Positions 4,187-37,196 of a stretch of DNA of 46,205 bases are shown here, one piece after another. This DNA is from a virus. Position 1 is the first letter of the stretch. Each line of letters opens with the position of its first letter. The translations under genes were made by a program, and so were the position numbers. The stretch lies in the IMG/VR virus record IMGVR_UViG_3300036715_001968, positions 1 to 46,205 of that record, one strand, 5' to 3'. The notes below the pieces were generated by a model. That model was not told the DNA's origin. It did not search any database and was given only the letters and a program-made list of their open reading frames with translations.

Positions 4187-4348
4187 TTAATTATCCTTTG
4201 ATATTTGGTTTTCAAGATTGGTGATTCGCTGGTCGAACTTGGAAACTATGTCGAGCATTCGCACGCCGATTCGGTAAGCTGCGATTGCTGAACAAATCAT
4301 AATTATCAGGCATGCGACTTGTAGCGTTTGATTGATGATGTCTGTCAT
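4187..4348 (-). CDS. Small membrane protein with coiled-coil tail
   Basis: This 53-residue protein starts at ATG 4348 behind AAGGA with good spacing and ends at TAA 4189-4187. Residues 9-25 (LQVACLIIMICSAIAAY) form one transmembrane helix. Residues 31-53 (MLDIVSKFDQRITNLENQI) form a heptad-like amphipathic helix. It sits in line between two leftward genes. The topology of anchor plus coiled coil resembles small phage accessory membrane proteins. The role is unknown. Confidence 0.7.
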   Translation of the reverse strand: MTDIINQTLQVACLIIMICSAIAAYRIGVRMLDIVSKFDQRITNLENQISKDN

Positions 4349-4366
4349 GATCATTCCTTTTCTAGT

Positions 4367-7622: not shown

Positions 7623-9110
7623 CTAGCTTTCCGGTTGTGATTGGTTTTCAGCCGACTTGTAGAGGCCGATCAGTTTGCCCGCGTAGGACCTTGAGTACCT
7701 TTCCGGGTTGGCGTGGCCTTTCCACTTGAGGAAGCTCACCATCTTCGGCGTAGGGGCCTCGTGTGCGATTGTGCGGAGAAATGCGGACGGCGTTTGTCGT
7801 TGCGCCGTGAGTGGATCGAATTCGGTTCGTGATTCGTAGGCTATTGTTCGCTGCCTGGTGCGGATTTCTACTTCCCGTCTTGCGGCTTCTTTCTCGGCGT
7901 GTATTTTCTTCGCGGCGTTCGTGATATCGAGCACGTCTAAGCCTTTGCCCTTGGCCAGTAGCTCATGCGTGAGTTTCCTGACTTCGGATGCTCCACCATC
8001 ATTGATGAATAGATCGGCTGGCCTTACGAGGTCGTGTTCATCGGTGAGATAATTGAAATCCAAAACCCGGCAGTCAGGTTTTCCGAGCCGGGTTCCGCGT
8101 CCAAGCATTTGCATAAAGAGTGCTCTGGATTTGGTTGGCCTGAGAGGTACTACGCATGCAGTGTGCGCAGCGTCGAATCCTTCCGTCAAGACTCCAAAAT
8201 TCACAATGTATTGAACGTCTTTCCGCTGGTATCTCGCGACCTTTTCGGAACGGTCTGGACATTCGCCGCTTACCCAAGTTGAAGCCAATCCCATTGACTC
8301 CAGAGCGTTCGACATTGCACTTGCTGATGCCACGTCCGGCATGAAAATAATTGTAGGTCTGTCTCCAGCTTCTTGCTGAATCGAGTTGGCTAGAAGTCCG
8401 ATCTTTGGCGAAATTCGTTCGGCCAAGTCGTCATTACTGAAGTCTTTTTTCTTGTCCATCTTCAGGCTTCGCAGGTCGATATCAATCTTGATTTGAACAT
8501 AGGTCAGACGGGCCAAGTATGGGCCTGGTGCTTCGGCTGTCATTCCATCGATAATTGAAAATTCATGAGCCACGATATCGAACACTCCCATCAAGCTTTC
8601 GCCGTCAACGCGGTCTGGTGTCGCGGTAACACCTGCAAAAATGGCTGTATGGAAATGGTTCTTAATCTTCCGGTAGCTGCTTGCGGTAGCGTGGTGAGCC
8701 TCATCACAGATGATCATTTTGAAATGATCTTTAGGCCACGATTCGAGCCGTTTTTTCTGGAGCGTTTGGACGCTGGCAACAACGACTTGCGGGTCCATGC
8801 CGTGCCGGGCCTTTGCGCTGGCCTTCTCGATTCCGGCTGTAATTCCAGCCCGTTCAAGCGTGTTCGCAGTCTGTGTGATCAATTCGTCGCGATGCGCGAT
8901 GACAAGCGTTCTGCCATCCTTGTCGGCGACCATTCGAGCGATCTTCGCGATGATGACTGTTTTCCCAAGTCCGGTGGCGTGGACTATCAATGGGGCTCGA
9001 TAGCCTTTCTTGATCGCATCGCGAGTGGACCTAACAGCATCGGCCTGATACGACCGCATGTTGATCTGGTCAAGCCCGAGTGGTGGCACAAATGAAAATA
9101 GCTTGCTCAT
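7623..9110 (-). CDS. SF2 DEAD/H-box helicase
   Basis: This 495-residue helicase starts at ATG 9110, which overlaps the upstream stop as ATGA. Motifs in order: MRSYQ (Q-tip region, 18-22), Walker A HATGLGKT (44-51), IAHRDEL (71-77), DEAH (136-139), TATP (162-165), the helicase C domain with TEGFDAA (309-315) and QMLGRGTRLGK (334-344). This matches ResIII/UvsW/RadD-like phage helicases that unwind branched DNA in replication and recombination. A basic C-terminal part of about 130 residues ends in a small globular segment (KMVSFLKWKG). Together with the prim-pol and SSB-like genes upstream it forms the replication module. Confidence 0.92.
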   Translation of the reverse strand: MSKLFSFVPPLGLDQINMRSYQADAVRSTRDAIKKGYRAPLIVHATGLGKTVIIAKIARMVADKDGRTLVIAHRDELITQTANTLERAGITAGIEKASAKARHGMDPQVVVASVQTLQKKRLESWPKDHFKMIICDEAHHATASSYRKIKNHFHTAIFAGVTATPDRVDGESLMGVFDIVAHEFSIIDGMTAEAPGPYLARLTYVQIKIDIDLRSLKMDKKKDFSNDDLAERISPKIGLLANSIQQEAGDRPTIIFMPDVASASAMSNALESMGLASTWVSGECPDRSEKVARYQRKDVQYIVNFGVLTEGFDAAHTACVVPLRPTKSRALFMQMLGRGTRLGKPDCRVLDFNYLTDEHDLVRPADLFINDGGASEVRKLTHELLAKGKGLDVLDITNAAKKIHAEKEAARREVEIRTRQRTIAYESRTEFDPLTAQRQTPSAFLRTIAHEAPTPKMVSFLKWKGHANPERYSRSYAGKLIGLYKSAENQSQPES

Positions 9111-13435: not shown

Positions 13436-13672
13436 TCATTGCGACGGCTCATCTCGCCATGCCGCCTGTATGCTCTGGCTCGCACTGTCCAGCACGTCCC
13501 GCCCGATCTTTCGGCCCGATCTGACGACGACCAGGGCGATGACAAAAGGCCAGACAATCCCGTCTGAGATCAGCCGGGTGTCGCGATAGAACGGATAGGC
13601 AAACAGGCCAGCCCCGATCATTACCCCCGTTGGTATGGCCCATATCAAAAATAGAATTGTGATCATGCTCAT
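13436..13672 (-). CDS. Two-helix membrane protein
   Basis: The protein has 78 residues from ATG 13672; ATG 13666 is also possible. Residues 3-26 (MITILFLIWAIPTGVMIGAG) and 35-52 (LISDGIVWPFVIALVVV) are transmembrane segments. A cytoplasmic-looking charged tail follows. Size and topology resemble class II holins or small phage membrane proteins. It sits far from the late genes, so superinfection or host modification is equally possible. Confidence 0.7.
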   Translation of the reverse strand: MSMITILFLIWAIPTGVMIGAGLFAYPFYRDTRLISDGIVWPFVIALVVVRSGRKIGRDVLDSASQSIQAAWRDEPSQ

Positions 13673-13692: not shown

Positions 13693-13878
13693 TTAATGCT
13701 TCCACTTGTCCCCGAACCGTCTATCCATCACTCTTGTGATCTTGGCCCACTCGTCCGGCTTTCTCACGTCTACCGGCTTAGGGCCTCTCCTGTAGGCTTC
13801 ACGAAATTCGCTGGCTACCCAAGTGACCAGCAACACCGCATCGACGACCATCAATATATAAATAATGTCTTTCATCAT
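13693..13878 (-). CDS. Small single-pass membrane protein
   Basis: This 61-residue protein starts at ATG 13878, overlapping the upstream stop as ATGA. Residues 4-22 (DIIYILMVVDAVLLVTWVA) form one transmembrane helix, and the rest is basic and soluble (REAYRRGPKPVDVRKPDEW). It is one of two adjacent membrane-protein genes. No family was recognised. Confidence 0.7.
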   Translation of the reverse strand: MMKDIIYILMVVDAVLLVTWVASEFREAYRRGPKPVDVRKPDEWAKITRVMDRRFGDKWKH

Positions 13879-20985: not shown

Positions 20986-21165
20986 ATGAATACGGTCGCA
21001 CGATTCATCGCCCGTTTTATCGCGACTTTCGGGGTGACATTCATCGTGATCTATTTGGCCTTGGCCCTCTCGATTTACTGGGCAGCAAGCCATCGCAAGC
21101 CAGCGGCTCCTGTGGGTGGCAAGATGGTTGTTCCACAAGCTCTGTTTAATGGGGTCGTCAAGTGA
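20986..21165 (+). CDS. Small membrane protein, possible holin
   Basis: This 59-residue protein starts at ATG 20986 after AGGTGA and ends in a GTGA overlap with the next gene. The N-terminus is short and basic (MNTVARFIARF). Residues 11-34 are transmembrane (IATFGVTFIVIYLALALSIY), and a soluble tail follows. It is the first of five consecutive membrane-protein genes. Size and position suit a holin or pinholin, but that is inference. Confidence 0.7.
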   Translation: MNTVARFIARFIATFGVTFIVIYLALALSIYWAASHRKPAAPVGGKMVVPQALFNGVVK

Positions 21166-21542
21166 GTGGGACGATAGCCACCAACATGGCCAGCACTCTT
21201 TCTCCGCCACCCATGCCACCCAATGCTGTTTTCCCATATGTCGATCGGTTCATGGGCAAGGGAACTAATCTGGATCTCTGGCGAAATCTCTTTCAGCTTG
21301 GCGTCGAAAATGGTGAAGCCATTGGGCTGGCCAAAGGGATCGTTGGGGCCACTCTTGTCTTCCTCTTGCTCGGCTTTTTCATCATGGCCGTCGCACTTAT
21401 CCTGCATCTTCTGAGGGCTCCCCATGCTTCGCATCCCACGATTGGCCCGCTTCCTCTTGCTCCTCCCGGCCCTGTTTATCCCCAACTTGGCAACTGGCCA
21501 AGTGCCGGACAGGCGGGGCGAAGTCGCGATAGAGGGGGCTGA
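21162..21542 (+). CDS. Single-pass membrane protein
   Basis: The protein has 126 residues from GTG 21162. A Pro-rich N-terminal segment is followed by an amphipathic part (MGKGTNLDLWRNLFQLGVEN) and one strong transmembrane helix near 60-83 (GIVGATLVFLLLGFFIMAVA). The last 40 residues lie in the 119-base overlap with the thiol-hydrolase gene and are Pro/Gly-rich. Such a long overlap is unusual and links expression of the pair. Confidence 0.65.
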   Translation: MSGTIATNMASTLSPPPMPPNAVFPYVDRFMGKGTNLDLWRNLFQLGVENGEAIGLAKGIVGATLVFLLLGFFIMAVALILHLLRAPHASHPTIGPLPLAPPGPVYPQLGNWPSAGQAGRSRDRGG

Positions 21543-22209
21543 GTATCGAGGGGTGAAAGCGAGTGCTCCAACACCCGCTGAATACCACGTGCATAACGAA
21601 GGTGGAAGCGACGGGGCTGGCCTCTGTGTGATTTCTTCGGTTATTGCCGCTGGCATGACGCAGGGTGTTCCGGGTCTCGAAACGCCTGGTAAGGATGAGC
21701 ACACTGGCAAGCAGGCCAACGGCAAGGGCTCGGCCCTCTGGCTCGCAGCGAAACGTGCGCCGGGCGGATACGGTCCACCGAAACTGGCCAGCATCTTGGC
21801 TAAAACGGTGCCGGGCGAAAAGTATTCCAACTACCTTGGCAGTGATCCCCTGATTCTCGAATCTCTCGTAAAAAAGGGATATCGAGTCGCGAACACGATC
21901 ACGCGAACGCCATACGGAAACAACATTCATCATCTCGTGAACACTGGCCATTTTGATTATTCGTCGAATGGCTGGGCGATGTATGAAGATAACAATGACC
22001 CCGGCATGTATCATTGGCTTCCAGCCCGTGAATATGCTTCCAGGCTAAGCGATGGCGGGCAGATTTGGCTGTTCTGGTGGGACCGGCTCGCATCACCACG
22101 AAAGCTGGCCGCTCTGCTATTTCTCGCCACGGCCTTAATGCTCGCATCGACCACCGTCCTCTTTCTGGCCCATGCCTCTCGTTTGAAAACGTCACGAGGT
22201 TTTCTATGA
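21424..22209 (+). CDS. Membrane-anchored papain-like thiol hydrolase
   Basis: This 261-residue protein starts at ATG 21424 with GAGGG six bases upstream. Residues 1-25 form a signal peptide (ARFLLLLPALFIPNLATG). Catalytic candidates are Cys68 in GAGLCVISSV, His169/170 in NIHHLVN and Asp189/Asn190 in MYEDNNDPG. Their order matches C39-like/papain-fold cysteine hydrolases. Residues 227-250 form a C-terminal transmembrane anchor, so the enzyme domain would sit on the periplasmic side. It could cut peptide cross-links or envelope proteins during lysis or entry. It is flanked by other membrane proteins, and no standard endolysin is seen in the window. Confidence 0.75.
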   Translation: MLRIPRLARFLLLLPALFIPNLATGQVPDRRGEVAIEGAEYRGVKASAPTPAEYHVHNEGGSDGAGLCVISSVIAAGMTQGVPGLETPGKDEHTGKQANGKGSALWLAAKRAPGGYGPPKLASILAKTVPGEKYSNYLGSDPLILESLVKKGYRVANTITRTPYGNNIHHLVNTGHFDYSSNGWAMYEDNNDPGMYHWLPAREYASRLSDGGQIWLFWWDRLASPRKLAALLFLATALMLASTTVLFLAHASRLKTSRGFL

Positions 22210-22805
22210 TCACACTCCTTTTACTCGCCGCGATCGGTCAGTCGAAATGCGTAGGCCCGGATTGTCCGGCCCCTCAGACTCAACTGATTCAATCGGTTGC
22301 TAGTCCCGACACGGAAACAATTCAACGCATATGGGTTACTAACCAAAACCGATATGCTTATGGGGTGATACGAAACGGCTACTTTGTCGAGGCCACCCAA
22401 GCCAATCAATCGAGCACTGGCCAGCCCGCCACGCCCGATGATCCTGGTTCGCTGGCGAACTCACCAGGATCACTCACCGGCCTGCTCACTGGCTCGCTTC
22501 CAGCCTCTCCCATCTCGGCTGGAACGATCGGTTCACCGCCGGGCGAACCCAACTATGGGATTAACTTGGCCGAACTGAAAAACCCGGCATTTCAGGGGTT
22601 TTATACCAATGTTGGCCCTGATGGATTCAACCCCGCGGAACATGGTCCGCCACCCACATTGCCCAGCGATCCGACGCCTCGACAGCGGGCGGAATGGGTG
22701 GTGCCTATCCTGTTCGGCACAACGGCAGTACTCATGTTTTTTGGCGTGCTTCTGATGGGGCTCGCAGCCTTTAACAAACCACGACAACAGGGGTTAGCAA
22801 GTTGA
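22206..22805 (+). CDS. Secreted, membrane-anchored hypothetical protein
   Basis: The protein has 199 residues from ATG 22206, which overlaps the upstream stop as ATGA; GAGG lies seven bases before. A short hydrophobic N-terminus (MITLLLLAAIGQSKC) looks like a signal sequence. A Ser/Pro/Gly-rich linker follows, then a segment with GINLAELKNPAFQGFYTNVG. A C-terminal transmembrane helix (WVVPILFGTTAVLMFFGVLL) ends in a short basic tail. The topology resembles a periplasm-spanning partner of the hydrolase. No known spanin motif is clear. Confidence 0.65.
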   Translation: MITLLLLAAIGQSKCVGPDCPAPQTQLIQSVASPDTETIQRIWVTNQNRYAYGVIRNGYFVEATQANQSSTGQPATPDDPGSLANSPGSLTGLLTGSLPASPISAGTIGSPPGEPNYGINLAELKNPAFQGFYTNVGPDGFNPAEHGPPPTLPSDPTPRQRAEWVVPILFGTTAVLMFFGVLLMGLAAFNKPRQQGLAS

Positions 22806-23101
22806 CTGATCCACTAACAATCGGGGCAGGTGTGGCCTGCGGGGTGGCCTTCCTTTTCTTGCTCTGTGCGGTGGCATTTCTGATGTTTCGCAAGAATCAG
22901 GCCAGCCAACAGCCCCAATACTTTCAGGCCCAACCATCCCAGCCGCTTCGGCCCTTCTCAGTCACTCAGCAGCTTGATGAACTCAAGTATGCCCATGCTG
23001 ATTTAGCACTCGGCCAGAAGCTTGGAGAAGGTCACCTATTGCAGCTTGGCCAAATGCTCGCACCAGCCAAGCCAGCGGCGGACACCGGCCCAAAAGCTTA
23101 A
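22802..23101 (+). CDS. Single-pass membrane protein, TTG start
   Basis: This 99-residue protein starts at TTG 22802, eight bases after AGGGG and overlapping the previous stop. The N-terminal transmembrane helix (VACGVAFLFLLCAVAFLMF) leads into a Gln/Pro-rich linker and a soluble helix (VTQQLDELKYAHADLALGQK). It is the last gene of the five-gene membrane cassette. The function is unknown. Confidence 0.65.
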   Translation: MTDPLTIGAGVACGVAFLFLLCAVAFLMFRKNQASQQPQYFQAQPSQPLRPFSVTQQLDELKYAHADLALGQKLGEGHLLQLGQMLAPAKPAADTGPKA

Positions 23102-23748: not shown

Positions 23749-23830
23749 CCGGGGATAGCTCAAACAGGCAGAGCTCTTCAGCCGAGACGATACGGCTGGA
23801 ATGGTGGTGGTTCGATTCCACCTCCCTGGA
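23749..23830 (+). tRNA. tRNA-like RNA with enlarged anticodon arm
   Basis: The 82-base sequence has a 7-pair acceptor (CCGGGGA with TCCCTGG, one G-U), then UA, a D arm GCTC/GAGC with a GG-containing loop, and a T arm GGTGG-TTCGATT-CCACC with a canonical loop and discriminator A. No CCA is encoded. The anticodon arm is abnormal: a stem CAGCCG/CGGCTG, extended by TT/AA past a bulge, carries the 8-base loop AGACGATA. A normal anticodon therefore cannot be assigned. It may be a degenerate tRNA, a tRNA mimic or a packaging-related RNA. It ends 88 bases before the small terminase gene. Confidence 0.55.
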
Positions 23831-23918: not shown

Positions 23919-24443
23919 ATGGCGCTCACAGTACAGCAACGCTTGTTTGTGAATGCGTATCTGAGGAACAACGGCAACGGATCAAGGGCTGCCTCTGAGG
24001 CTGGTTATGCTTGCCCAGAGATCGCTGCTAGTCGCCTGTTAAGGATTGTGAAGGTAAAACGATGTATAGAAAATCGGCTTGAAAAAGTCGCCATGTCAGC
24101 CGATGAAGTATTGATACGTTTATCTCGTTTGGCGGCGGTCGATGCGACCAATTTTATCAGTTTGACCAATGGTAAAGCTGCTCTTGACTTGGCCAAGGCA
24201 AAGAAGAAAGACAACCTTTGCGGCGTGAAAGAGATCAAGGAAACCAGCCACGAACGCGAGGGCATCACGTCAACAACTGTTGAAGTGAAGATAGATTCAC
24301 CGCTCAAGGCTCTGGAATTGTTGGCCAAGTACCACGGGATTCTGACCGACAAAATTGAACTTAAGAATTCCACTCAAGACGTGACGAAAATGACTGATGA
24401 GGAACTTGCCATCATTGCAGCTTCGGGCGGCAGCGGAACTTGA
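23919..24443 (+). CDS. terS: Terminase small subunit
   Basis: The protein has 174 residues from ATG 23919 with a strong AAGGGGTGAG site. The N-terminal DNA-binding region (LTVQQRLFVNAYLRNNGNGS, then RAASEAGYA) and central helices (SPLKALELLAKYHGILTDKI) are characteristic of the Terminase_2 family. It recognises the packaging site and forms an oligomer that stimulates the large subunit. It overlaps terL by 47 bases. Confidence 0.85.
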   Translation: MALTVQQRLFVNAYLRNNGNGSRAASEAGYACPEIAASRLLRIVKVKRCIENRLEKVAMSADEVLIRLSRLAAVDATNFISLTNGKAALDLAKAKKKDNLCGVKEIKETSHEREGITSTTVEVKIDSPLKALELLAKYHGILTDKIELKNSTQDVTKMTDEELAIIAASGGSGT

Positions 24444-25896
24444 GCGACGACGACGGGCCGCGAAGCCTCTGACATTTCGCGAGTATGTTGACAAGGTTCG
24501 GCCCGGTTATAAGTGGTACAAGCACTGCATTGTTCTAGCCGAAATCCTCCAAGATGTTGCAGACGGCAAACGAAAACGGCTGATGATTTTCATGCCACCC
24601 CGGCATGGGAAAAGCGAAGAAATCTCCCGGTTGTTTTCGGCTTACTACCTCTACCGCTTCCCGTCGCGATGGGTGGGCATCAACAGTTACGGGGCCGAAC
24701 TCGCCTACACGCTTTCACGGGCCTCTCGTGAGAATTACCTACGCGGTGGTGGGCTGGTCAAAGATGACGCCGCGGCGGTCAAGCACTGGGAAACGAAGGG
24801 CGGCGGTGGCCTCTGGGCAGCTGGAGTGGGTGGCCCGATCACTGGCAAGGGATGGCACCTTGGCATCATCGACGACCCCGTAAAAAACGCGAAAGAGGCA
24901 TCTTCGCGAGTCGTCCAGCAAACTCATCAAGAGTGGTATCAGTCTACCTTCTACACTCGCGAAGAACCAAACGATGAAGGTTCGCCGGACGGGGCCTTAA
25001 TCGTCATTCAAACACGCTGGCATGAGTCGGATTTATCGGGGTGGTTGCTCGCTCAAGAGATTGCGGACGACGCGAGCCCGGAAGGATGGCACTTGGTCAG
25101 CTTCGAGGCCATCAAAGAGGCTGAACCGCAAGAGTTTCCGCCCACTTGCACAGTTGAACTAGACTGGCGAGAAGCGGGCCAAGCACTTTGCCCCGAACGT
25201 CGTCCACTCGAAAAACTGAAGCGAATCGCCAAGGCTGTAGGCTCGTACTTTTGGGCGGCGGTCTACCAGCAAAAACCACAGCCGCGCGAGGGTTCACTTT
25301 TCAAGTGGGCGTGGTTCGAAAACAAGATCGTCCAGGCGGCTCCGGCTGTTGCCACTCGTGTTCGATATTGGGACACGGCTGGCACGGAAGGGCAGGGCGA
25401 TTACACGGTCGGGACGTTGGTCGCTCGCACGTCTGACGGTCGCTATTGGATCGAAGATGTCGTGAGGGGCCAATGGGCACCGGGGCATCGTAATCAGCGG
25501 ATTAAAGAGACGGCTGACAGAGACGGCAAGCAGGTCACCATTTGGCTCGAACGCGAAGCGGGTGTGGGTGGCGTGGCTCGAACGCAAGAAACGATCCGCA
25601 TACTTGCTGGCTACATCGTCAAAACGGAACCGGCCACGGGTAGCAAGATCGATCGGGCCGACGGCTTGGCAGCCCAGGCCGAAGTCGGAAACGTCAGTGT
25701 TGTGAAGGGGCCGTGGAATGCGGCGTTCTTCAAAGAATTGCTCGAATTTCCTTACGGTTCGCATGACGATCAAGTTGACTCGGCAAGTGGCGGATTCAAC
25801 AAAGTTGCTGCCACCCCATCCCATCACGCGCCGCTAGCAACCGGTTCGCCGCGTCCCTCTTTCCAGCACTCGGGGCAAATTGATCATGGCCGATGA
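24397..25896 (+). CDS. terL: Terminase large subunit
   Basis: This 499-residue packaging motor starts at ATG 24397. The ATPase has Walker A PPRHGKS (67-73) and Walker B LGIIDDP (155-161). The RNase H-like nuclease uses Asp326 in RYWDTAGT, Asp336 in GDYT and HDDQVD (456-461). The WDTAGT form is typical of Terminase_6/phage_terL_C lineages. It cuts concatemers and pumps DNA through the portal. Its 3' end overlaps the portal gene by 11 bases. Confidence 0.95.
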   Translation: MRNLPSLQLRAAAELERRRRAAKPLTFREYVDKVRPGYKWYKHCIVLAEILQDVADGKRKRLMIFMPPRHGKSEEISRLFSAYYLYRFPSRWVGINSYGAELAYTLSRASRENYLRGGGLVKDDAAAVKHWETKGGGGLWAAGVGGPITGKGWHLGIIDDPVKNAKEASSRVVQQTHQEWYQSTFYTREEPNDEGSPDGALIVIQTRWHESDLSGWLLAQEIADDASPEGWHLVSFEAIKEAEPQEFPPTCTVELDWREAGQALCPERRPLEKLKRIAKAVGSYFWAAVYQQKPQPREGSLFKWAWFENKIVQAAPAVATRVRYWDTAGTEGQGDYTVGTLVARTSDGRYWIEDVVRGQWAPGHRNQRIKETADRDGKQVTIWLEREAGVGGVARTQETIRILAGYIVKTEPATGSKIDRADGLAAQAEVGNVSVVKGPWNAAFFKELLEFPYGSHDDQVDSASGGFNKVAATPSHHAPLATGSPRPSFQHSGQIDHGR

Positions 25897-28898: not shown

Positions 28899-29975
28899 AT
28901 GGGTAGCGTTTTAGACGCCTCGATTCAGAAGTTTTCGGGGCAGGAACTTCAGCCCCTTTTCCGGCCACAGTTGGCCCTATCAACCGGGTTCAATCTCCCG
29001 CCGTCCGTCACGATCTCCAAAGGCCAGTTGATGGCCCCTGTGAGTGGTGGCAACATGAACGAAACGCAGACGCTCACGCTGTCTGCCTCGCTCTCTTCGG
29101 GTAACTTCTCGATCAACGTGACCCGAGACGGTGTGACCCAAATCGCCGGCAACATCGGGTATAACCCAACTGCCGCGCAGGTGCAGTCTGCCATCGTTGC
29201 CCTTGGCATCATCGGCACGGGCAATTGCACGGTGACTGGTTCGACGGGCGGCCCGTTCACTTTCACATTTGGCGGTGGCCTGGCCAATACCCCGTTGCCC
29301 TTGATGGGTGGCAACCTTGGCACGCTGGCTGGTGGCACGCCTGCTTTGACATTCGCGAGAACTCAGGCCGGTCAGACGGCTGGCACGCTCGCCCCTTATG
29401 CTGGTGCGGTAATCGCTCCACCATCGACCGCTCCGACGCTCACGCCAACTGGTTCGGGTGGTACGATTGGGGCTGGTACTTACTTTGTTAATTACACGTT
29501 GGTGACTGCTCTTGGCGAGACGACCCCAAGCCCAGCGGCTCCGACCACGTTGACTTCGGCCCAGTCGATTGTGGTGACCTCGATCACTGGTCTCGCATCT
29601 TCGGTTACGGCGGTAAACTTCTACATCAATGGATGTCTGTCGAAGACGGTTACACCAACTTCGGGTGCAACGGGTTCGGTTACGATCTCTGCCGCATCGA
29701 CGACCCTAGCCGGTTCGCCTCCAACCCTGAACGGAGCCAACCCCAAGCCGATGGCGATTGCTCGATACGACATTGCGACCGACTCGTCTGGAAACATCAC
29801 TTTCGGCGCACAGTCGGGCGGCGGTTTCTGGGGTGACACGGAACTTTCGTCGGCCTTCTACGTGACGGGCGATTATTCTTGTGCCGATGTTATCGGCCTG
29901 GACACCAACGCCATTACGGCGGGCGGTTTGAAGTTGATCACCGGAACGGTTACCAGCGGTATTCTCCGGCTGTAA
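28899..29975 (+). CDS. Head decoration-like protein with inserted Ig-like domains
   Basis: This 358-residue protein starts at ATG 28899 after GAGGTG. The N-terminal arm and last 70 residues (GGGFWGDTELSSAFYVTGDY, ITAGGLKLITG) resemble capsid decoration proteins. Between them lie two inserted beta domains. One, about 55-150, has IGYNPTAAQVQSAIVALGII and GNCTVTGSTGGPFTFTFGGG. The other, about 175-275, is fibronectin-like (GTYFVNYTLVTALGETTPSP). It stands just before the capsid gene. The inserts probably display on the virion and may bind hosts or surfaces. Confidence 0.7.
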   Translation: MGSVLDASIQKFSGQELQPLFRPQLALSTGFNLPPSVTISKGQLMAPVSGGNMNETQTLTLSASLSSGNFSINVTRDGVTQIAGNIGYNPTAAQVQSAIVALGIIGTGNCTVTGSTGGPFTFTFGGGLANTPLPLMGGNLGTLAGGTPALTFARTQAGQTAGTLAPYAGAVIAPPSTAPTLTPTGSGGTIGAGTYFVNYTLVTALGETTPSPAAPTTLTSAQSIVVTSITGLASSVTAVNFYINGCLSKTVTPTSGATGSVTISAASTTLAGSPPTLNGANPKPMAIARYDIATDSSGNITFGAQSGGGFWGDTELSSAFYVTGDYSCADVIGLDTNAITAGGLKLITGTVTSGILRL

Positions 29976-36006: not shown

Positions 36007-36510
36007 ATGTTCACCGCTACATATTTTACACCGACTTATTTTGCACCGACGTACTTTGCGGAAGTTGGCAGTTCATCCACGCCTCCCAGCTTGCTCGCGG
36101 CCATCGAAGCGAAGTTAATCGCCGATTCCACCTTGTCTGCGATTACGGGCGGGTTTTGGAAAGATCAGAAGCCCGCGAAGTCGTTGACCGGGACACAGTA
36201 TCCGGGGCCTTACGTCACGATTACTCGACTAGGATCGACCGAATTATGGCGAACTAAAACGAGCCGATGGCAATCGGAAAAGATCCGTTTTCGGGTCCAT
36301 GTTACCAACGCTAGTGACGCTGAAACTTATGGCGATTTGATTATTGCTTCAGTTTCAGGATGGCAGCCGATCGATTACGCGAATGGCTTCGTTGCGCAAA
36401 TTCACGAGGCGGGATCATCGTCGAACCGTGTCACAAAACTAAGTGTCGGCGAATTGTCGGCTTGGACATTTGACACTGTTTTCATATTTGAATGTAAACG
36501 GGGAGCATGA
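36007..36510 (+). CDS. Tail terminator-like protein
   Basis: The protein has 167 residues from ATG 36007, which has a perfect AAGGAGG site. A short aromatic repeat (TYFTPTYFAPTYFAE) precedes a fold with LLAAIEAKLIADSTLSAITG, YPGPYVTITRLGST and KIRFRVHVTNASDAETYGDL. This matches the alpha/beta pattern of DUF3168/tail-terminator proteins that cap the tail tube. The aromatic repeat is unusual. Confidence 0.65.
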   Translation: MFTATYFTPTYFAPTYFAEVGSSSTPPSLLAAIEAKLIADSTLSAITGGFWKDQKPAKSLTGTQYPGPYVTITRLGSTELWRTKTSRWQSEKIRFRVHVTNASDAETYGDLIIASVSGWQPIDYANGFVAQIHEAGSSSNRVTKLSVGELSAWTFDTVFIFECKRGA

Positions 36511-37196
36511 GCTTGATTTACACAATCACCACGACCACCAAAAAAGATGGGGCCGTGCTCTCGACGTGGACGGAATCCATTATCGCTGACGGGTGTCCAG
36601 TCTGGTCTGTCGGAGTGCTGGGAGGGGTGTCAAATCAGCAGGCACAAATTCCGATAAATATCGCGAATTTGCAAGGTTTGCTGATCGGATCAAGTCAGCC
36701 CGTTACAATCAAAGTCAACGGTAATAATGCCGTTCAATCGCTCACGATTACTGGATCACCAACGGGCGGAACATTTACAGTTACTTACGCCACGATCACG
36801 TCCGGGGCCATCGCCTATAATGCTTCGGCGGCGACCGTTCAAACGGCTTTGCAGGCCATGAGTAGCATTGGGGCGAACAACGTCACGGTTACCGGCTCGG
36901 ATGGGGGGCCTTGGACGTTGACGTTCAGCGGTGCTCTTGGCGTGCAACCCATCACGACCGTGACGCGCACGGCAAGTTTCACAGGTGGTACAACTCCAGA
37001 CGTGACACCTGCCAGCGTGACGACTGGGGTAGTACCGGTGCAGACTTTAATCTTTTCGGCTGGAAACCCGTTGGTATGGTCATATCAAGATGGGTTTTTT
37101 GCCGATCCGCTTTCAGTTTCGGTGGTGAATTTGTGGATCACCAATCCAGGGACAGTCGCCGCAAAAGTTACCATTGAGTTGCCCAGCAATTCATGA
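36507..37196 (+). CDS. Tail protein with inserted Ig-like domain
   Basis: This 229-residue protein starts at ATG 36507, overlapping the upstream stop. Flanking parts (WTESIIADGCPVWSVGVLGG, LVWSYQDGFFADPLSVSVVN) form the base domain. The middle, about 75-175, is an inserted module with GGTFTVTYATITSGAIAYNA, SAATVQTALQAMSSIGANNV and TVTGSDGGPWTLTFSG, the same type as in the decoration protein. It lies between tail-terminator-like and tape-measure genes, where the tail tube gene is expected. Confidence 0.65.
   Translation: MSLIYTITTTTKKDGAVLSTWTESIIADGCPVWSVGVLGGVSNQQAQIPINIANLQGLLIGSSQPVTIKVNGNNAVQSLTITGSPTGGTFTVTYATITSGAIAYNASAATVQTALQAMSSIGANNVTVTGSDGGPWTLTFSGALGVQPITTVTRTASFTGGTTPDVTPASVTTGVVPVQTLIFSAGNPLVWSYQDGFFADPLSVSVVNLWITNPGTVAAKVTIELPSNS

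Follow-up and report, generated by a model that had tools for sequence, protein, structure and literature searches.

In phages lambda and P22, the lysis genes lie between the late transcription factor and the terminase, in the order late regulator, holin, endolysin, spanins and terminase, and small membrane proteins and one envelope hydrolase are encoded there by tightly overlapping genes. The hydrolase is a soluble lysozyme, and the spanin pair consists of a membrane protein with a cytoplasmic N terminus and a periplasmic coil, together with an outer-membrane lipoprotein. SAR endolysins are instead exported and membrane-tethered, and retain an N-terminal signal-anchor. Among enzymes with a papain fold, PeiR cuts wall peptides, and its substrate is archaeal pseudomurein. 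There is also a precedent for phage endolysins with a C39-like domain: in mycobacteriophages, the N5 domain, whose best match is a C39-like peptidase of B. anthracis (PMC3314691), is part of modular endolysins that usually combine it with another catalytic domain and one for wall binding. On the host side, Planctomycetes possess a lysozyme-sensitive peptidoglycan sacculus containing DAP (PMC4432640), so a peptide-cutting lysin would have a target in such a host. The premise of an atypical planctomycete envelope, on which an earlier reading of the present DNA had relied, is therefore weaker than claimed. The open-access literature, a scope outside which most subscription papers fall, yielded no account of how phages of Planctomycetes break their hosts, or of the gene module described below.

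The window (the whole stretch of 46,205 bases that was analysed, an IMG/VR record) comes from a temperate tailed phage, as judged by Pfam and PHROGs matches to an integrase, helicase, primase, repressor, sigma factor, TerS and TerL, portal, head protease and major head protein. The late genes are ordered sigma factor, a five-gene cassette, TerS, TerL, portal, protease and major head protein (Table 1). The sigma-70-like factor, which stands immediately 5' of the cassette, is probably the activator of the late genes, and TerS is the next late gene recognised 3' of the cassette. The slot between sigma factor and terminase thus matches that of the lambda and P22 lysis genes, and by this analogy supports a role in lysis. 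It is likely that the five genes form a lysis cassette whose endolysin is a new cysteine enzyme tethered to the membrane; peptidoglycan would be its target, and the holin is presumptively assigned. A tRNA-like gene, whose anticodon ARAGORN left undetermined, is found between the cassette and the terminase and could be a degenerate tRNA. Elsewhere in the window, two proteins match both phrog_2839 ('tail sheath') and phrog_5042 with weak to moderate E-values, which suggests a shared domain that is used twice.

Table 1. Positions of the cassette genes and of other features of the window
Feature	Position	Strand	Characteristics
Small membrane ORF	4187-4354	-	early region
Small membrane ORF	13436-13672	-	early leftward region; hydrophobic helix, no clear family match
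Small membrane ORF	13693-13878	-	early leftward region; hydrophobic helix, no clear family match
Sigma-70-like factor, 195 aa	20390-20977	+	Pfam Sigma70_r2 6.7e-11, r4_2 1.2e-7; PHROGs sigma factor 1e-26
ORF 1, 59 aa	20986-21165	+	one membrane segment, residues 12-30
ORF 2, 126 aa	21162-21542	+	amphipathic stretch, then membrane segment 63-81, proline-rich tail
ORF 3, 261 aa	21424-22209	+	papain-fold cysteine hydrolase (predicted); signal peptide, catalytic domain ~28-222, C-terminal membrane helix 226-254
ORF 4, 199 aa	22206-22805	+	signal peptide, C-x4-C directly after it, 'NYGINL' motif, C-terminal membrane helix 165-183
ORF 5, 99 aa	22802-23101	+	N-terminal membrane helix 11-29, basic residues after helix
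tRNA-like gene	23749-23830	+	ARAGORN
Terminase small subunit (TerS)	23919-24443	+	PHROGs phrog_51 4.7e-25
Terminase large subunit (TerL)	24397-25896	+	PHROGs phrog_38 2.4e-86
phrog_2839/phrog_5042 protein	28899-29975	+	
phrog_2839/phrog_5042 protein	36507-37196	+	

Five overlapping membrane-protein genes had been claimed for the interval 20986-23101 in the sequence-only reading, and this description is confirmed: all five ORFs are on the plus strand, and each encodes one strong hydrophobic segment (best 19-residue Kyte-Doolittle means of 2.24-2.88). The overlap is 4 nt at the junctions of ORFs 1/2 (GTGA), 3/4 (ATGA) and 4/5 (TTGA), which suggests translational coupling, and 119 nt between ORFs 2 and 3. 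Membrane segments were assigned by Kyte-Doolittle hydropathy throughout, and signal peptides and lipoboxes by eye; no lipobox was seen in ORFs 1-5 in this way. Of the 43 other window genes checked, two passed the same hydropathy filter, and both encode long proteins. Since the early minus strand carries small membrane ORFs as well, the notion that the cassette contains every membrane protein of this phage was dropped.

None of the cassette proteins tested gave a significant match in Pfam, PHROGs or NCBIfam, including the holin and spanin families. ORF 1, for which no homologue was found, would be holin-like by its size and topology only, and ORF 2 is a candidate holin on the same two grounds; its match to Pfam Phage_holin_3_6 (E=0.097) was below the cut-off. 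Three relatives (L188, L189 and L190) carry a small gene at the position of ORF 2, where the similarity is weak and the correspondence is one of topology only. The start of ORF 4 is the ATG at 22206, within a mechanical ORF that opens at 22065. Equivalents of ORF 4 are present in L183, L187, L188 and L190, and in L189 the equivalent is fused to the hydrolase, while ORF 5 has equivalents in L183, L187, L188, L189 and L190 and in the terminase-linked members of clade III (described below). The co-conservation envisaged for all five genes thus holds for ORFs 3-5 upstream of the terminase and does not extend to ORF 1, or to ORF 2 beyond the three topological matches. Because the basic residues of ORF 5 come after its helix, this protein is probably oriented N-out with a cytoplasmic tail.

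The AlphaFold model of ORF 3 (mean pLDDT 88.8, pTM 0.80) places Cys68 at the start of a helix and both His170 and Asp189 on the sheet or next to it; a hydrophobic N-terminal stretch resembles a cleaved signal peptide, and the C-terminal helix (residues 226-254) is separate from it. The best fold match in the PDB is the primitive phytochelatin synthase Alr0975 (Z 13.9 over 172 residues, model residues 28-221), and the matches within 1 Z of it include other papain-fold proteins. The C39-like peptidase 3erv (Z 12.1, model residues 43-222), the pseudomurein endoisopeptidase PeiR (Z 11.3), papain-like toxins and CtaG are also among the closest solved folds, and there is fold overlap with the C39 peptidase domains of PCAT1 and ComA. 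Among the viral models of BFVD, the matches include Lysin A of a Mycobacterium phage and cyanophage proteins named lysozyme or endolysin. In an alignment of 54 sequences, the residues Pro51, Asn58, Gly66, Cys68, Gly115, Thr158, His170, Asp189, Asn191, Trp198 and Trp215 are invariant. Judged by the predicted structure, the fold matches and the invariant C68/H170/D189, ORF 3 is a member of the papain-like cysteine hydrolase superfamily. A papain-like enzyme with a signal peptide and a C-terminal anchor had been proposed from the letters of the sequence, and the model, fold matches and hydropathy bear this out. Its catalytic residues were correctly named in part: Cys68, His170 and Asp189 stand, while His169, given as an alternative, varies among the homologues, and Asn190 is nearly invariant, the adjacent Asn191 being fully so.

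Membership of the papain superfamily does not by itself specify a substrate, and ORF 3 departs from its structural neighbours in several respects. It shares the papain fold with Alr0975 and 3erv at ~10-15% identity only, and differs from them in its phage context, its added membrane anchor and its surroundings of the nucleophile. The oxyanion-hole Gln, expected about six residues before the Cys, is common but not universal in the papain-like superfamily. It is not conserved at this position in the 54-sequence alignment; residue 62 (-6 from Cys68) is a Ser in ORF 3 and varies in the family, and Asn58 (-10) is invariant instead. No sequence-level match to PeiR was found, a PDB sequence search with the family profile returned nothing credible, and Pfam C39_2 (PF13529) matched neither ORF 3 nor its 53 relatives and nothing else in the record; one planctomycete copy reached E=0.062 (14.3 bits, cut-off 24). 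At the level of sequence, these searches support a new enzyme family, contained in none of the curated libraries searched (Pfam, PHROGs, NCBIfam), and to this extent the word 'distinct' in the earlier description of the system is justified.

The fold matches bear on two other functions. The first is a maturation protease of the bacteriocin-type C39 class acting on small exported peptides, for which the overlap with the C39 domains of PCAT1 and ComA and the small proteins close by could be cited. This function is highly improbable: no ABC transporter was recognised nearby, no Pfam C39 match was obtained, and the ORF 3 domain is predicted to be periplasmic, as opposed to the cytoplasmic C39 domains of transporters. 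The second is a pair for periplasmic thiol chemistry or processing, in which a hydrolase or transpeptidase like phytochelatin synthase (peptidase C83) and a thioredoxin-like partner would act on thiol peptides or envelope proteins of the host. Alr0975, the top match, is a glutathione-cleaving enzyme, the partners in relatives are thioredoxin-like with CxxC in L315 and L317, and a CxxC thioredoxin is encoded in several clade III cassettes. The Alr0975 match, however, reflects the general papain fold (~10% identity), which is common to peptidases and the pseudomurein lysin, and CxxC is missing from most partners; such a pair is considered quite unlikely.

Single-sequence scans with ORF 3 detected no relative in viral contigs, genome contigs or named phages, and a scan with the window TerL likewise found none. 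Planctomycete genomes selected by their 16S probe pattern led to the first relative, L119, a copy of ORF 3 with 40% identity in a Planctomycetaceae MAG, which adjoins a gene resembling (by eye) a phage head-tail connector. The L119 domain, followed by a six-sequence profile, then recovered 110 relatives in IMG/VR, and a scan with a clade II profile returned only contigs already found. The first profile matched two of the 392 planctomycete genomes sampled and a larger profile matched four, with one genome common to both, so that five genomes carry copies. In one of these (G397, contig C1), two divergent hydrolase modules, L314 and L315, are located near 2.99 Mb and 4.45 Mb, one of them among phage head genes. 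Inspection of the neighbouring genes of all these copies placed L119, L315, L317 and that of prophage G404 among phage-like genes, and L314 and L316 show the same three-gene set. On the basis of these relatives, the host of the window phage probably belongs to the Planctomycetota. The host named in the sequence-only reading is thereby supported, although it cannot be read from the contig alone.

A maximum-likelihood tree resolves clade II (the window phage, L183, L186/187, L188, L189 and L190) and clade III (L191-L204 and the planctomycete prophage G404), each with support of 100/100; clade I denotes the large remainder of the tree. The branch of the window phage is long, and its placement within clade II is unsure. 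In clade II, the hydrolase is followed by ORF 4-like and ORF 5-like genes and then usually by the terminase. L183 has the same arrangement as the window, with a sigma-like factor at the head, and in L187 a TerS relative with 43% identity to that of the window is located downstream of the hydrolase. In clade III, a hydrolase with a lipobox in place of the C-terminal helix precedes a thioredoxin-like partner (signal peptide, C-terminal helix), a membrane-tail protein and the terminase; prophage G404 has this order, preceded by a small coiled-coil/helix gene. TerL is found 1.2-2.8 kb after the hydrolase in 16 further loci of clades II and III, which represent several different terminase types. 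Many clade I members are a single protein with a signal peptide, hydrolase, small beta domain, thioredoxin-like domain and C-terminal helix; the helix is present in clade II and in many members of clade I. The clade I gene often comes after tail genes, and the gene behind it commonly encodes a protein of 73-82 aa with one or two helices. In the planctomycete prophages L315 and L317, the hydrolase and its CxxC thioredoxin-like partner are placed inside a head-gene module.

Most thioredoxin-like partners are without CxxC. When ORF 4 and the fused clade I proteins were compared as profiles, no significant similarity emerged (probability 3.7%), and the equivalence of ORF 4 to the partners of clades I and III is consequently drawn from gene order, topology and short motifs. 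A C-x3,4-C-P motif was set aside as evidence, its density close to the hydrolase being only about three times that in other places. The gene upstream of the clade III hydrolase was compared with XhlA and remained below the cut-off (E=0.036).

The varied positions of the gene raise the question of a function outside lysis. An enzyme of the virion or the entry stage, digesting the envelope locally at DNA injection or aiding head completion, would agree with its location among head or connector genes in L119, L315 and L317 and right after tail genes in much of clade I. The parts of a tailed-phage virion are, however, not expected to bear signal peptides, lipoboxes or C-terminal helices, and this function seems very unlikely. 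A module that modifies the envelope or excludes superinfecting phages, whose anchored hydrolase and partner proteins would alter the periplasm or keep other phages from entering without lysing the cell, would account for every part being membrane-anchored or exported and for a genome place that differs between clades, as is common for accessory cargo. The module is nevertheless kept in late operons that diverge strongly and differ in terminase type, and in many clade I phages the gene after that of the enzyme encodes a small helix protein; in addition, exclusion genes are more often expressed from a prophage or from the early region. We therefore regard an exclusion module as unlikely.

Lysis or envelope remodelling, as the sequence-only reading had put it, continues to be the best reading, given the co-conservation of ORFs 3-5 before unrelated terminases, the papain fold and the lambda-like position. 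In each of the three clades the enzyme is predicted to be exported and retained at the membrane, though by different anchors, so that its substrate is likely to be in the envelope, and the small membrane proteins beside it also support lysis. What the window holds is a late-operon position, a putative envelope hydrolase and membrane proteins that are holin-like by topology only, the combination by which a lysis cassette is recognised. In L217, whose TerL is the closest terminase relative examined (55% identical to that of the window), the gene just 5' of the terminase matches PHROGs 'endolysin' (1.4e-5 and 4.8e-5). As had been claimed, no conventional lysin was recognised among the window ORFs tested, and Amidase_2, Phage_lysozyme and Peptidase_M15_3 were all below cut-off in the window record. 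The same three families were absent from all 46 hydrolase-bearing records (the window and 45 relatives), many of which are fragments, and present in 4 of 27 terminase-matched controls (Fisher p = 0.016). After this comparison the lack of a conventional endolysin, at first taken as strong proof, was downgraded to mildly informative. Against lysis are the variable position across the family (in the head module in L315 and L317, beside a connector-like gene in L119) and the tethering of the enzyme, which is unlike the usual soluble endolysin.

In the lysis mechanism proposed here, the five genes would be transcribed as the first part of the late operon, following the phage sigma factor gene, and would serve this temperate tailed phage, whose host is probably a planctomycete, as its lysis cassette. 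ORF 3 would be exported via its signal peptide and stay on the inner membrane by its C-terminal helix, with the Cys-His-Asp papain-fold domain, whose fold and conservation were computed, on the periplasmic side, where it would most likely cut peptide bonds of the host peptidoglycan as an endolysin. ORF 1 and/or ORF 2 may serve as holin or timing protein. ORF 4 would be a membrane-anchored periplasmic partner of ORF 3, as suggested by gene order and by models of the thioredoxin-like domain or fusion at that place in relatives, and the remaining member of the set would be ORF 5, a membrane protein whose tail is predicted to be cytoplasmic. Such a cassette would differ from those of lambda and P22 in its exported, anchored papain-fold enzyme, its lack of recognisable spanins and its two extra anchored partner proteins. 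The putative lysin would differ from N5 in being a tethered enzyme of a family without a recognised profile, and from SAR lysins in its combination of N-terminal signal peptide and C-terminal helix, or lipobox in clade III. A more specific version, redox-coupled lysis, is a tentative and rather doubtful possibility: across many planctomycete phages, a tethered thiol endolysin whose catalytic Cys is kept or switched by the anchored thioredoxin-like partner (with C-x4-C in the window phage) would take the place of soluble endolysins.

Whatever its function, the module is real, conserved and previously uncurated, and contains a new family of papain-fold enzymes. The exported enzyme family and its conserved neighbourhood provide a concrete, testable lysis candidate for planctomycete phages, and membrane-tethered lysins of a new class, accompanied by an unusual thioredoxin-like partner, may emerge from the module. 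Annotators could also name hydrolase genes in more than 100 viral contigs.

Further genes were observed around the hydrolase in relatives. Several clade III phages encode a signal-bearing CxxC thioredoxin (Pfam 2.1e-13) after the cassette and before the terminase (L193 1800-2198 and relatives, cluster c26). Directly 5' of the clade III hydrolase, there is often a protein of ~200 aa (L192 1-612, L191 9261-9857 and relatives) that by eye is similar to permuted papain enzymes of the YiiX type and matches the oddly named PHROGs family phrog_1128 (2.6e-10). In L126, a class 3 lipase (8085-8822, plus strand; Pfam Lipase_3, 2.9e-27) is located directly 5' of the hydrolase region and is possibly a further envelope enzyme.
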